From: Candidatus Saccharimonadota bacterium
Lineage (GTDB): Bacteria; Patescibacteriota; Saccharimonadia; Saccharimonadales; Saccharimonadaceae
Length of the DNA: 60,340 nucleotides
Assembly (NCBI GenBank): GCA_017545485.1
Contig: JAFWMY010000002.1
Coordinates: forward strand, 71,688 to 132,027
Reading direction: 5' to 3'
The number at the start of each line of letters is the position of its first letter. Within the stretch, counting starts at the first letter, position 1. A model generated the notes under the pieces. That model did no database searches, was not told the DNA's origin, and was given only the letters and a program-made list of their open reading frames with translations. The translations under genes and the position numbers were made by a program. This document shows positions 2,248 to 42,103 of this stretch, piece after piece.

Positions 2248-5200
2248 TTAATTTGCGAGTGTAAAAGATCTGCCTGATGGTGGAGTAGCAGTAACTGAAG
2301 TAGTATTACCGTAAAGATTAGAAGTAGTATTGGCGATTGGCCCCGTAGTTGTTCCATTATTAGTCTTTGGAATAGTGACAGACCAGGTGGTGGCGCTGTA
2401 GCCGGCAGAATTAAACATGTTAGACATGTTCGTCACACTAGAAGTGTTCCAGGAGGAGAGGTCTAGAGTGAAGGAAGTGGCACTGTAGCCGGCAGTGTTG
2501 AACATATTAGACATATTTTCCACACTAGAAGTATCCCAAGAAGAGAGATTGCCAATAGACCAGGTGGTAGCATTGTAACCGGTGTTGGCGAATAGTTCAC
2601 TCATATCTGTCACGCTAGAAGTGTTCCAGGAAGAGAGATTGCCAATAGACCAGGTGGTAGCAAGGAAGCCAGCACCATCAAACATTTCATACATGTTTGT
2701 TACGCTAGAAGTGTTCCAGGAGGAGAGGTCTAGAGTGAAGGAAGTGGCACTGTAGCCGGCAGAGCGAAACATACCAGCCATATCCGCCACATTAGAGGTA
2801 TCCCAGGAGCAAAGGTTGCCAACGGACCAAGTAGTAGCGTTGAAGCCGGTGGTGGCAAACATGCCATACATATTTGTCACACTAGAGGTATTCCATGAAG
2901 AAAGGTCGCCAACGGACCAAGTAGTAGCGTTGAAGCCGGCAGCATGAAACATATAACGCATGTTTGTTACGCTAGAAGTATCCCAGGAGGAAAGATCCAA
3001 GATGAAGTTGGCGGCGTTGTAGCCGGTATGGCCAAAAATACTGGACATACTTGTAACCATAATTGTACCCCATGTAGAGATTGTGGTTAAGTCAGACAAG
3101 GCTCTCATTTCATTAAAGAAATAATTAGAGCTTTTATTCATGAAAATCGTTGTGGCTTCGGAGTAATAGTAGATAGTAGAGTTAGACGAATCATACCAGG
3201 CATAAATAGGGTATGGTGAAGAGCTGTCTGAAATGGTGTTTTCAGTAGAAGAAGAAAAATTGTTTGGTAGAGTGTTAGAACGGACGATAGCAGTAATAGC
3301 AGTATCTTGAGTAGAGTAGGTAGCTGAACTGTTCCCTGCTAAACGTTTAAGTTTTTGGTTAACAGTTTGTCCAGTGTCAAGATAAGCGCCTTCTACCCAG
3401 ACAGCATAAAGGGTGATGGTGTTGCCAGTAGTAGTGAGGTTAGTGACTTTTTGCTCGTCACTATAAAATGTACCAGTACCGTCAGCGGCTGTATTCCAGC
3501 CACGGAATATATAACCAGTAAGAGCAAAGGTGCTAGCCTTGATAGCAGTGGCAGTATCTCTTGCTATGGTCTGGTTAGTCATAGTCCCAGTAGCAGAACC
3601 AGAAGTACCACCTACGCTAGTTTCGTTAGCATTAAAGGCAATGTAATAAACTTCATCCCATTGAGCATAAAGAGTAATGTTATCACCATCGGAAACAACG
3701 GACGATGCTAAAGTGCCTGCAGTAATTGTAGTACCGGTACCATCAGCTTTGGTGTTCCAGTCTTTAAACTGGCTGTTTGCTGGAGCGGTGAAAGAATTTG
3801 ATTTAACTGTTGTAGAATTAATATCTCCCGTCTGTCCTGTCATAGTGCCAGTACCACCATTAGCGTTGTAGTTAATAGTAGCAGTACCGTTAGAAGCAAC
3901 ACATCTTACGGATTCGCCATAGCGTTTGTAATTACTGCTATATGAAGCAGCATTATAAGCGGCAGTGTAATAGGCATAACGGTCGCTATAGTTAGTAGAA
4001 GTCCAGAGCCTTATAGAGTTTGTCTGACCAGAAAAACTGGTACCATTACGATAACCGGCATAAATGAAACTATATGGCGCAGCACTCATTTTAACATAAG
4101 AATTATTGCCGGAAGTAGTGCGGAGATTATTATATATTGCACTGGTAGGCAAATCCCAACCTTTAGGACAAATGGAAGTAGTGATGTTTTGGCCGGACGT
4201 GCTATAAGCATCAACTGATGCAATAGCTGCAGCAAAACTATAGTAGCCACCGTAAGTGCTATCAGTGAGAATTTTGGGGCTGATTCTAGTATCTGCGTTA
4301 TCAGTAGTTTCAAATGCCGTAGTAGAAGCTGGAGCCATAAAGGTAGCACCAGGCGGGAGATCTGTGTCATATGATGTTAATAAAATATCACTATTGTTAC
4401 CATAGTTTAGATTTTTAGTAATCCATAGTTGTCCATCTACTAGTTTAGCTATAGTATAAGATTGTCCATCTCTTGCGTCTATTAAACTATATGTGCCAGA
4501 TGAGGTATCTGCAGTAGGAAGATTGGCCTTCATACTAGGTTTTACATCTTGGAGACAAACTGCATCTGTAGAAGAATTACCAGTGCCGATTGTCGTGGCA
4601 GATGGATTACAACTGTTATTTGCCCAAACAGCATAAAGCACGGCATTGGTGTCTCTGGTTTTGAATGCACCAGACGCTTGAACTTCGTTACCATTTTTAT
4701 CCATCCAGCCTAAAAAAGTATAACCAATGCGAGTGGGAGTAGAGCTACTCACAACGTGGGTAGCAATGCTATTGGCAACAATTGTCTGAGAAGCGGGCGC
4801 TCCAGAACCCCCATTGGCGTTATAGGATAATACATAATTTATAGGATTAGAAGCAATGCATCTAACAGAACCGCCGTAAGACTTGCTAATATACTTACCA
4901 TAGTAACTGCCTGTCCCTGGGTAAACGGTAGAAGAATTCAAATACATTAGGTAAGCGCTATCGCCAGAATAAGTCGTTGACGACCAATAATAGCCGCCAG
5001 AGCCACGATCACGAATCGCATCAGTACTGTAGCCAGAATAAATAAAATTATTAGGATACCTACGGAAAGCCTTAGTAGCAGTATCACCGGCCATGTTTAT
5101 CGTGGCGCTCGTGTAACGAGAATTACCACTATTAGTTGTGTCTTCATAAGCAGTTTTTAGTTCGTGCATGATTTTATAACCTAAATTATAAAATTCGCGA

Positions 5201-22135: not shown

Positions 22136-22597
22136 TTAGAATGGTACTTCACTTAAATCAATTTCGCCTTCTGGGATATCGTCTGGGATATCGTTGGCTG
22201 GAGACGCTTCTGGAGCTGATTCTTGTGAATAATCATTAGAATAAGAATTGCCACCATCACGATTGGCTGAGCCGGCAAAATTAAAATCTTCAACAACAAT
22301 TTCAACGCGAGAGCGTTTTTTGCCATCAGTTTTATCTTCCCAGCTGCGCTGGTCAAGACGACCCGAAACGAGCACGCCAGAGCCTTTTTTGGCATATTGG
22401 GCGATCATTTCACCGAGTTTACCCCAAGCAGAACAATCAATGAATGAAACATCTTCTTTTTGCTCGCCACTAGCATCACGATAAACACGGTTAACAGCTA
22501 CTGAAAAGCTACAAACGGTGGAACCATTTGGCGTTGTGCGAAGTTCTGGATCGCGAGTTAAATTACCAGTAATGATTGCTTTAGAAAAACCGCGCAT
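22136..22597 (-). CDS. ssb: single-stranded DNA-binding protein
   Basis: A 153-residue SSB: OB fold at about 1-108 ([41 protein letters not shown]), a Ser/Asn/Pro linker, and an acidic tail ending DLSEVPF. The tail is the docking peptide for repair and replication partners and matches the usual D-D-x-P-F type. The gene sits between rpsF and rpsR. The same seven C-terminal residues end the HNH nuclease at 40238-40900. Confidence 0.97.
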
Positions 22598-38005: not shown

Positions 38006-39082
38006 GTGAGTATAGACGATTTTATTGAAAGGCTAGCTAATTATAAAAGCAATGATGTGGTTTTTAATATGTACCGTGGGAATTCTGTGGCCGCTAAAAA
38101 ATGTCGTAAAAATTTAAAAGAGTATTTAGAAAAACATAAGAATTCCCAAATATTGCTTGTTGGTGAGGCGCCAGGATACAAGGGTTGCGCCAGAACCGGC
38201 GTGCCATTTACGAGTGATTCAGGTGAAATTTCTGCAAAGGTTTTGCAGGGTGCCATTGATAAATATAGCCCAAATACCGATGTCTTGATGTGGAATGCAT
38301 TCCCATTTCATCCGCACAAGAAAGGCGAACGTAAGTCTAACCGCAAACCAAGTAAAGCCGAAGTTCAATCAGCCAGTTGGATGATTATGAATTATTTTTT
38401 GGAAGTCTTTCCAAATATAAAATGTGTCGCCTCGGTGGGAAATGTGGCAAAAGAGTTGCTACAACAATTTGAATTTGAGTACAAACCGAGCCATATTTGC
38501 CATCCTTCGTATGGACATAAAAAGCAATGCGAAGAGGATACGTATCGGGCGTTATCTAGATTTTCTAACATTCTGTTGGATGAAAGGATCATGAGGTCTG
38601 TAGCTGATTGCGTAGAAGAAGAATACAAAGAGGCGGCCTATCACTATCTTAAGGAACACAAAAAGGAATTCTTTGATTGGTATGGATTGTCCGACCATAT
38701 GGAATATGCGCATGCTTATTTATTAGGGGACAAAGATATTAATCTTTCCGAATATCAGAAATGGCCAAATGAGATTAGTACGGAGAAAAATGCGGAATAT
38801 TTAGATAAGGTTAAGCCGGAATATATTACTCGAGTGGTGTGCGAAAGAGATGATCCGTACTATGATACTTCGGCTAGTATCTGGACAATGAAAGTGTATT
38901 TGAAGGTTCACGGTTGGAATGCGATGGCGACAATAGAAGATTCTTCGCCTTGGTATAAGAAGATTTTAGGGATGGTAGAAAAATCTGATGATTTTGTCCA
39001 TAAAAGCATCGGAGATTATAGCGAAGAAGAGGGGTTTTGGTACGGGCGGTTTAGCTATACTAGAAAAAATGAGAAGGTTTAG
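38006..39082 (+). CDS. uracil-DNA-glycosylase-superfamily protein with extra C-terminal domain
   Basis: A 358-residue protein. The first half has the UDG-superfamily marks: GEAPG at residues 53-57 with TGVPFTS, MWNAFPFHPH at 95-104 and HPS at 166-168. This suggests excision of uracil or a related damaged base. Residues about 180-358 form a second region (DWYGLSDHMEYAHAYLL, ASIWTMKVYLKVHG, EEEGFWYGRFSYTR) that I cannot assign. GTG start supported by the -10 box just upstream. It converges with the hydrolase at 39087 with a 4-nt gap. Confidence 0.72.
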   Translation: MSIDDFIERLANYKSNDVVFNMYRGNSVAAKKCRKNLKEYLEKHKNSQILLVGEAPGYKGCARTGVPFTSDSGEISAKVLQGAIDKYSPNTDVLMWNAFPFHPHKKGERKSNRKPSKAEVQSASWMIMNYFLEVFPNIKCVASVGNVAKELLQQFEFEYKPSHICHPSYGHKKQCEEDTYRALSRFSNILLDERIMRSVADCVEEEYKEAAYHYLKEHKKEFFDWYGLSDHMEYAHAYLLGDKDINLSEYQKWPNEISTEKNAEYLDKVKPEYITRVVCERDDPYYDTSASIWTMKVYLKVHGWNAMATIEDSSPWYKKILGMVEKSDDFVHKSIGDYSEEEGFWYGRFSYTRKNEKV

Positions 39083-40237: not shown

Positions 40238-40900
40238 TTAGAACGGGACCTCACTGAGGTCTAATTCATTGTCATAAAGATATTCATAGGAGTCAGAGAG
40301 TTCTTCTTCTGCGTATTTATTTGGTTTAATCCAAGATGGTTTGGCATTGTAATATTCTTTGTTCATTGTGCTATTGTACCCGCGGCCCTTGGTGCCTTTA
40401 ATGCGGTTACATCTAGAACAGGTAAGAACTAAGTTAGACAAGCTATTGTCGCCATTGGTAATCAGAGGCTTAATATGATCGGTGTGAGTGCAGGGCAAAT
40501 GAATGTTGATATAACGTTTACACCATGCACATTTTTTATCTTGGCAGATATACTCTTCTTCTTTCCATTTTCTAAATAGGTCGGTTTTTTTGAGTTCTTC
40601 AAATTCATCTCTTAAGGCTTTCCACCCTTCAAAGTTATCATAACGTTTAACAAATTCGCCATTTACTGTAATATAACCTTTTCGGGCGGTGATGCGAGGC
40701 AAACCATAGATAGTAAAATAATCGTTTACATCAAAATTGCCTGGCCTGTAACCTTCTTCCATAAAGATTTCATCTTCATCAGAATAATATTTACATGCAA
40801 GATCATAGTTTTCTGGATATTCATTCTCCAAAAAATTCCACCAATTTTCACAATCATATTCGGTAAGAATATAATTATCGGTTGCGTAATCTGTCCTCAT
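40238..40900 (-). CDS. HNH nuclease with SSB-like C-terminal tail
   Basis: A 220-residue protein. Residues about 1-115 are an acidic, aromatic-rich domain I cannot assign. An HNH domain follows: Cys124/Cys127, the DHIKPL motif (Asp141, His142), Asn156, then Cys161/Cys164 in LTCSRCNRIKG. After a spacer the protein ends in DLSEVPF, identical to the last seven residues of SSB at 22136-22597. That peptide is the docking tail recognised by DNA repair and replication proteins. The ATG has only a weak Shine-Dalgarno site and overlaps a 29-codon frame. The target and role are unknown. Confidence 0.8.
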   Translation of the reverse strand: MRTDYATDNYILTEYDCENWWNFLENEYPENYDLACKYYSDEDEIFMEEGYRPGNFDVNDYFTIYGLPRITARKGYITVNGEFVKRYDNFEGWKALRDEFEELKKTDLFRKWKEEEYICQDKKCAWCKRYINIHLPCTHTDHIKPLITNGDNSLSNLVLTCSRCNRIKGTKGRGYNSTMNKEYYNAKPSWIKPNKYAEEELSDSYEYLYDNELDLSEVPF

Positions 40901-40964
40901 GGACCCTACCTTTTGCGACCATATCGCGCAAGTTTTGCTTAATTTGCTCTCTTGATAACATCAT
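40875..40964 (-). CDS. 29-residue upstream small ORF overlapping the HNH gene
   Basis: Starts ATGATG at 40964 with AGGAG 6-7 nt upstream and a TGGTATAAT box about 35 nt upstream. It encodes MMLSREQIKQNLRDMVAKGR and a short basic end, and stops 26 nt inside the HNH gene in another frame. It has better start signals than the HNH gene itself, so it may couple or regulate HNH translation, or be a small helical protein (an antitoxin-like N-terminus is one thought, without proof). Confidence 0.45.
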   Translation of the reverse strand: MMLSREQIKQNLRDMVAKGRVHEDRLRNR

Positions 40965-41080
40965 AAACTCCTAAAACTCATTTATGTCTTCTATTATACC
41001 ACATATATCTTATTTTGTCAATTATAATAGAGGTGCTTGGCTGGTTGTATAGTATAGTTTATCTGATATAATGAAGATAG

Positions 41081-42103
41081 ATGGAAGGTCAAGAGAAGAG
41101 AATTGAAATCTATAAGGGGCTGGAGGGTGAGGTAGTTTTTGATGTAGACATGGAGGGGGAAACAATTTGGGCGACACAGGCGCAAATTGCACAGCTTTTT
41201 GGTGTAGCTCCTCAGAACATTACTTACCATATCAGAAATATTTATAAAGAAGGGGAGTTAGCAGAGGAGCCTGCAGGAAACAAACGAACTTGTAAAGAAA
41301 TTTTACAAGTTCGGGATGAAGGTGGACGTAAAATACAACGTAAGGTGAAAGTATACAATCTTGACATGATTATTTCGGTGGGTTACCGTGTGAATTCTAA
41401 AAAGGCGACACAGTTTAGGGTGTGGTCAACAAACGTTTTGAAAAAATATTTGGTAAATGGGGCGGTAGTGAATGAACAACGAATAAAGGAGCTGGCGGCA
41501 CAACGTGAAATTAAGAAATTACATAACGTAGAAAATATGATGGCCCTAGTGCGGAGATTGACAATGAGAAATGAGCTGAGTGCGGGAGAAGCAAATGGGG
41601 TTTTAGAAGTTATTTCAAAATATGCAGGGAGTTTTCGCACTTTAGAGGAATACGATGATGGGTTTATAGATTTGTCATTTATGAGCGGGAAGAAGCGGAT
41701 TAAAGAGTTAACAATAGAGATGTGCAAGTCGGCCGTAGAACAATTGCGCAGTAGCGTAAAGGGGTCGGATTTGTTTGGAAAAGAGAGGAATGGTAGTTTT
41801 GAGGGAAGTTTAACGGCAATTTTTCAGAGTTTTGATGGAAAAGAATTATATCCTTCGGTGCCAGAGAAGGCGGCTCATTTATTGTATTTCATAATTAAAG
41901 ATCATCCATTTTATGACGGGAATAAGCGAATTGGGGCGCTACTTTTTATTTTGTTTTTGACTTTGAATGATTACCACCTGACAAAAAAAGGTGAAACTAA
42001 AATATCGGACAAGGCGCTAACTGCAATTGCTCTATTAATTGCGGAAAGTGAGCCAAAAGAAAAAGGGTTGATTGTGAGCCTGGTTTGTAAGTTATTAGAG
42101 TAA
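41081..42103 (+). CDS. RhuM-like / Fic-Doc fusion protein
   Basis: A 340-residue protein. Residues about 15-135 match the RhuM virulence-protein pattern (TIWATQAQIAQLFGVAPQNI, a winged-helix-like DNA-binding part, then YNLDMIISVGYRVNS and FRVWSTNVLKKYL). A helical linker follows. The C-terminal Fic/Doc domain has HPFYDGNKRIG at 275-285, of the Doc (GNKR) type, usually a kinase or AMP-transferase. No antitoxin gene adjoins it, and the RhuM part may be its own regulator. TATAAT ends 8 nt before the ATG. Confidence 0.85.
   Translation: MEGQEKRIEIYKGLEGEVVFDVDMEGETIWATQAQIAQLFGVAPQNITYHIRNIYKEGELAEEPAGNKRTCKEILQVRDEGGRKIQRKVKVYNLDMIISVGYRVNSKKATQFRVWSTNVLKKYLVNGAVVNEQRIKELAAQREIKKLHNVENMMALVRRLTMRNELSAGEANGVLEVISKYAGSFRTLEEYDDGFIDLSFMSGKKRIKELTIEMCKSAVEQLRSSVKGSDLFGKERNGSFEGSLTAIFQSFDGKELYPSVPEKAAHLLYFIIKDHPFYDGNKRIGALLFILFLTLNDYHLTKKGETKISDKALTAIALLIAESEPKEKGLIVSLVCKLLE

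Follow-up and report, generated by a model that had tools for sequence, protein, structure and literature searches.

The window, that is, the whole stretch of 60,340 nucleotides analysed here, carries on its minus strand a gene for an HNH nuclease and a gene for the chromosomal single-stranded DNA-binding protein (SSB), and the two proteins share their C-terminus. The features considered are the following.

22136..22597, minus strand: chromosomal SSB gene, assigned by Pfam, whose product shares the C-terminus of the nuclease (tail 22139-22159)
40238..40900, minus strand: HNH nuclease gene, an ORF of 220 aa with Pfam HNH and HNH_4 over cut-off
40241..40261, minus strand: putative SSB-type C-terminal docking peptide DLSEVPF, from the ORF end and the tail pattern
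40262..40318, minus strand: acidic, variable, disordered linker, residues 195-213 (AlphaFold2; unalignable among relatives)
40391..40531, minus strand: HNH/beta-beta-alpha-metal core, residues 124-170 (CxxC...D141-H142...N156...CxxC-N165)
40631..40873, minus strand: N-terminal domain, residues about 10-90, belonging to no Pfam family
40875..40964, minus strand: small ORF of 29 aa (MMLSREQIKQNLRDMVAKGRVHEDRLRNR) in the +1 frame, overlapping the start of the HNH gene
40993..41021, minus strand: predicted sigma-70-type promoter (TTGACA 41016-41021, 17-bp spacer, TATAAT 40993-40998)

The 220-aa protein belongs to the HNH endonucleases (PF01844; E 5e-9, 36.6 bits against a cut-off of 21.4), with the D-H and N residues and the paired CxxC motifs in place. 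C124, C127, D141, H142, N156, C161, C164, and N165 are invariant in an alignment of five full-length relatives, and we infer that the protein cuts or nicks DNA. AlphaFold2 gives block means of about 86-97 for residues 101-140 and 93 for residues 151-160, with adjoining blocks at 80 and 72, and leaves linker residues 200-213 unfolded (pLDDT <50). Among PDB structures, the core best matches Gmet HNH (4h9d) and the HNH domains of Cas9 (E 0.003-0.05). This core fold is common to HNH nicking endonucleases, Cas9-type HNH domains, and T4 endonuclease VII; in contrast to those enzymes, the protein is without guide-RNA parts, has an N-terminal domain of no known family, and carries an SSB tail. The families of the retron-associated HNH (TIGR02646, 18.8 against 52), IscB, and Cas9 were rejected, all being far below cut-off. 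The protein matches no SSB family and is not itself an OB-fold SSB.

Searched alone, the N-terminal 90 residues match no Pfam family. The same domain also exists without the HNH part in genomes G085 and G161 (L011, L012). It was observed on its own (90-92 aa), together with a small upstream ORF, at L054 7207-7479(-) and L055 7036-7314(-), near large UvrD-type helicase-like and NERD-type-like genes named by sequence look.

The HNH gene is free-standing, convergent with a tRNA-Ser gene about 20 bp away and divergent from a RhuM-Fic gene. For comparison with homing endonucleases, whose genes lie inside an intron or intein or mark an intronless target site, the observations are this free-standing position and neighbours that vary from lineage to lineage. 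The RhuM-Fic gene (41081-42103, plus strand) encodes a RhuM-Fic domain protein and adjoins two Mur-ligase-like genes, named by sequence look. At 38006-39082 on the plus strand, some 1.2 kb away from the HNH gene, lies a gene for a protein of the Uracil-DNA-glycosylase superfamily that has a long C-terminal extension. The predicted promoter sits upstream of both the small ORF and the HNH gene, and near-consensus -35 and -10 elements are likewise found upstream in relatives. In G142, G162, G135, G085, and G161, small ORFs stand at the corresponding position and in the same relative frame, some of them ending ..HEDRL or ..HEYP. A search of ten other genomes gave no sequence match to the small ORF, so the case for its conservation comes from where it lies, its frame, and a weak motif; it is possibly a coupling peptide or a split N-terminus. 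At L078, a similar small-ORF stretch seems fused in frame to the HNH gene.

The shared C-terminus of the nuclease and the SSB

Translation of the ORF gives the C-terminus of the HNH protein as YEYLYDNELDLSEVPF* (also given as YDNELDLSEVPF). It ends ELDLSEVPF, and the SSB (PF00436, E 4e-36) ends EIDLSEVPF. The sequence-only reading had placed the HNH gene at 40238-40900 and reported its DLSEVPF end as identical to that of the SSB at 22136-22597, with an acidic and a hydrophobic residue ahead of both motifs; the coordinates, the seven residues, and the preceding pairs (EL and EI) are all correct. It had also held that the differing codons speak against a recent copy. The nuclease tail is written GAC CTC AGT GAG GTC CCG TTC TAA and that of the SSB GAT TTA AGT GAA GTA CCA TTC TAA, so that the two tails use different codons at five of the seven positions (D, L, E, V, and P), and such tails recur in relatives, in agreement with that view. 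As a separate observation, the tail codons at 40247-40261 read as a perfect inverted repeat of 7 bp around a single central base (GACCTCA-G-TGAGGTC); the corresponding codons in G162 and G135 show no such repeat.

Only two genes in the whole 885-kb genome match the pattern [DE]-[LIVMF]-x-[DE]-[LIVMF]-P-F-stop, the SSB and the HNH gene, and no match came from the reversed control. When non-overlapping ORFs of >=100 aa in the window are considered, 45 in all, only two end in phenylalanine, again the HNH protein and the SSB. Among 258 ORFs of fetched stretches, an SSB-like tail was found only on the SSB, the HNHs, and two proteins fetched for their tails. Coincidence has next to no probability and is ruled out: nothing was found in its favour, the HNH gene is the only non-SSB match in the genome, and the 258 ORFs yielded none outside the expected proteins. 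The HNH and SSB genes lie on one 132-kb contig, so their pairing is not a binning artefact.

In E. coli, binding of the SSB C-terminal peptide (SSB-Ct) requires the terminal phenylalanine with its carboxylate, the proline, and the acidic residues, which are recognised by a hydrophobic pocket together with a basic lip and ridge (PMC10164576). The HNH tip has a terminal phenylalanine with a free carboxylate, a penultimate proline, and acidic residues. Together with the disordered linker, these features place it, by sequence, among SSB-Ct docking peptides.

Conservation of the tip among relatives

The survey covered 174 genomes of the same Saccharibacteria genus. The full-length HNH type is present in five of them (the present genome, G142, G162, G135, and G012), and a weaker full-length relative occurs in another genus (G438). 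The closest full-length relatives, at 52-56% identity, keep the ..VPF end, with exact [DN]LSEVPF in two: G135 ends FEYDLSEVPF and G162 ends FEYNLSEVPF, both beside an SSB ending EVDLSEVPF. Two HNHs of other architecture also carry SSB-type tips. That of G166, which has an N-terminal hydrophobic segment, ends IYDLSDIPF (SSB, EIDLSDVPF), and that of G192 ends EINLEDIPF, which resembles the end of its SSB, QINLDEIPF. The recurrence of DLSDIPF and NLEDIPF on these remote HNHs, alongside the ends kept at 52-56% identity, supports the earlier claim that the peptide itself is under selection.

Conservation of the tail together with the tail of the SSB from the same genome, proposed earlier as a check, is frequent and recurrent, and the tail is also optional. 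G142 has a degenerate tip, TLGLIKVPF (SSB, EVDLSEIPF), as does G012, NDSVDLGF (SSB, DIDLSEVPF), and in G087, where the HNH part is 57% identical, the tail is absent and the SSB ends DLSDVPF. These three go part of the way towards what had been named as a refutation, namely relatives with unrelated C-termini and conserved SSB tails. HNHs without a tail were found in G087, G102, G085:C1, G032, G069, G073, G116, and G438. Since several relatives are without it, the tail is a facultative module. In an HNH-core tree with weak support overall, tailed and tail-less forms are intermixed, which forces at least two changes, and the tailed HNH of G192 is nested among tail-less relatives with branch support of 99/96. 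On these sequences the tail has apparently been gained or lost more than once, and the independent tailed HNH lineages are few, four at most.

The G162 and G135 nucleases differ by dN 0.051 and dS 1.04 (NG86), a dN/dS of about 0.05 for this one pair that indicates strong purifying selection. This low dN against a high dS means that the nuclease is maintained. Their last seven codons show two synonymous changes and one D/N exchange. Such conservation in relatives whose synonymous sites approach saturation argues against the tail being a functionless relic, in which recombination fused the 3' end of ssb to the nuclease gene. Exact identity with the local SSB would suit a relic; the five differing codons and the presence of tails on separate HNH subfamilies do not. 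We regard a relic as very improbable, and it is largely ruled out.

The linkers ahead of the tips are unalignable among relatives, and the SSB-type tip is kept in G135, G162, G166, and G192, in the first two of these behind a linker with a K/R-rich stretch. Since the tip is conserved but charge and linker are not, docking into a pocket is favoured over simple electrostatics. This also bears on two further explanations. The acidic tail might fold onto the basic surface by which the HNH domain binds DNA, keeping the domain off until ssDNA or a partner frees it, and the present protein, whose linker and tail are very acidic and left unfolded by AlphaFold2, is compatible with such self-control; however, the K/R-rich linkers of G135 and G162 with their tips kept, and the conservation of L..[ED][VI]PF, which simple charge would not produce, make it quite improbable. 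SSB tails contact the SSB core, weakly and largely through electrostatics. The nuclease tail might mimic this known contact with the OB fold and bind SSB itself, setting the nuclease on SSB-coated ssDNA, which would fit a tail and an SSB from the same genome. Such a weak, electrostatic contact accords poorly with a conserved tip that includes PF, and we consider this reading improbable, a little less so than self-control.

To compare each tail with the SSB of its own host, we used a permutation test. For 12 tail-bearing proteins, a small sample that includes relatives, the own SSB fits better than shuffled SSBs (p about 0.01). With the test limited to the 7 HNHs, p is 0.04-0.07, which is statistically weak. 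These comparisons are suggestive of a tail adjusted to the SSB of its host.

Neighbourhoods and other carriers of the tip

The tailed nucleases and their relatives lie in varying surroundings. The G012 gene adjoins a serine recombinase, with recG further along, and those of G135 and G162 adjoin murI (recG and murI named by sequence look). The G192 gene adjoins one for an AlbA_2/Schlafen-type protein. In G166 (L056), a PIF1/Dda-like helicase gene at 2363-4270(-) is followed 3 bp on, on the same strand, by the tailed HNH, and the helicase and its DLSDIPF-tailed neighbour form a candidate two-gene system. Varying neighbours and sporadic occurrence point to an accessory, mobile-like gene. A search of the genome contigs with the single HNH protein gave no match, and a search with the HNH alignment returned 8 loci, mostly ones previously found. 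Viral contigs held no relative of the HNH protein or of the DLGEIPF protein and XRE regulator described below, and plasmid and phage records gave weak HNH-domain matches only (29-37% identity among the matches listed).

The tip is also present on other proteins. Pattern matches were taken from two genus-wide sets, in the first those that most resembled SSB tails and in the second chiefly those from genomes with at least two matches, so the following carriers are a minimum; the remaining matches read were SSBs or spurious, mostly very short ORFs. An XRE-type regulator, at L132 24-569(-) and at L141 (G136, G438), ends ESPFDLDEVPF, with the same C-terminus in two genera, and is possibly mobile. 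Proteins of 180-200 aa tipped DLGEIPF occur in G113, G122, and G177, within an accessory group of that size (L129/L130/L148, L137, L139). The G190 protein of this size has the tip INLDDIPF, as does its SSB, and that of G024 has INMDEIPF beside an SSB ending INLDEIPF. One tailed 180-200-aa protein is weakly similar, below cut-off, to the ssDNA-binding protein of phage Enc34. A 98-aa protein of G401 also carries an SSB-type tip, and the tailed protein of G099 is SpoVG-like by sequence look, with no family match. We tentatively entertain, at somewhat under even chances, a broader view in which the Saccharibacteria SSB tail is a portable address tag that accessory or mobile genes (HNH, XRE, phage-type ssDNA-binding, SpoVG-like) would have acquired several times and adjusted to the host, plugging into its replication and repair hub.

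The same distribution bears on the main, live rival to delivery of the nuclease, in which the tail would compete with SSB for its pockets. As part of a mobile element or toxin, it would chiefly fill SSB-Ct pockets and inhibit host replication and repair proteins, and further damage done by the nuclease would then be repaired poorly. Such a decoy fits genes that occur sporadically and in varying surroundings, one of them beside a serine recombinase, and it also fits the same tail on other accessory proteins, including the XRE regulator and the phage-type ssDNA-binding proteins. SSB is abundant and tetrameric, however, so a single-tailed nuclease would be a poor competitor unless highly expressed, for which the consensus promoter leaves room. 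Purifying selection also spans the whole nuclease, and overall we consider a decoy unlikely.

Proposed role and relation to known systems

We lean, with somewhat better than even confidence, towards an accessory HNH nuclease that would dock on replication and repair proteins by inserting a borrowed SSB-Ct peptide into their pockets for the SSB tail. The globular part, made up of the N-terminal domain and the zinc-type HNH core, would cut or nick DNA, and the flexible linker would present D-L-S-E-V-P-F-COOH. The tail would enter the SSB-Ct pocket of at least one replication or repair protein, such as RecO, PriA, or another SSB partner; the genome encodes RecO_C (an intact 227-aa ORF) and PriA. 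Docking would place the nuclease at ssDNA, forks, or repair intermediates, or let it ride with a docked helicase, and its purpose may be repair, defence, or the spread of a mobile gene. The nuclease bears the same seven-residue tag as the SSB, and some related enzymes carry their own versions, so the tag probably steers the nuclease to repair and replication enzymes. The earlier suggestion, drawn from the sequence, that a tailed HNH could be delivered to, or block, SSB partners is plausible.

The proposed arrangement resembles the SSB-Ct docking system in its flexible linker, acidic residues, and terminal Pro-Phe with free carboxylate (PMC10164576). It differs in that the peptide sits on an HNH nuclease and not on an OB-fold ssDNA-binding protein, so that a client-like enzyme wears the tag of the hub. 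An HNH domain has been linked to the SSB system through the phage Orf/DUF968 family, which is found fused to HNH; proteins of the Orf family bind SSB, and for YbcN the binding is through the SSB tail (PMC4118853). In the present case the polarity is opposite, the tail being on the nuclease itself. DdrB of Deinococcus, a non-OB-fold protein that binds and anneals ssDNA, has a proposed SSB-like C-terminal motif, which is dispensable for radioresistance (PMC3834827); in contrast to the present protein, it is not described as a nuclease. In the literature searched, DdrB was the only relevant case found of a protein other than SSB with an SSB-like tail or a mimic of that tail, and no description of a nuclease carrying an SSB tail was found there.

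The SSB tail is usually taken as a feature of SSB itself, read by many enzymes. If the proposed role is true, other proteins that bear the tag in the spelling of their host would be able to enter the hub from the other side. For any bacterium, this predicts that C-terminal SSB tags outside SSB may point to new repair, defence, and mobile-element proteins. Saccharibacteria are tiny parasitic bacteria and poorly culturable, and here the tail would provide a clue to the function of a nuclease that could otherwise be identified as HNH and no more.
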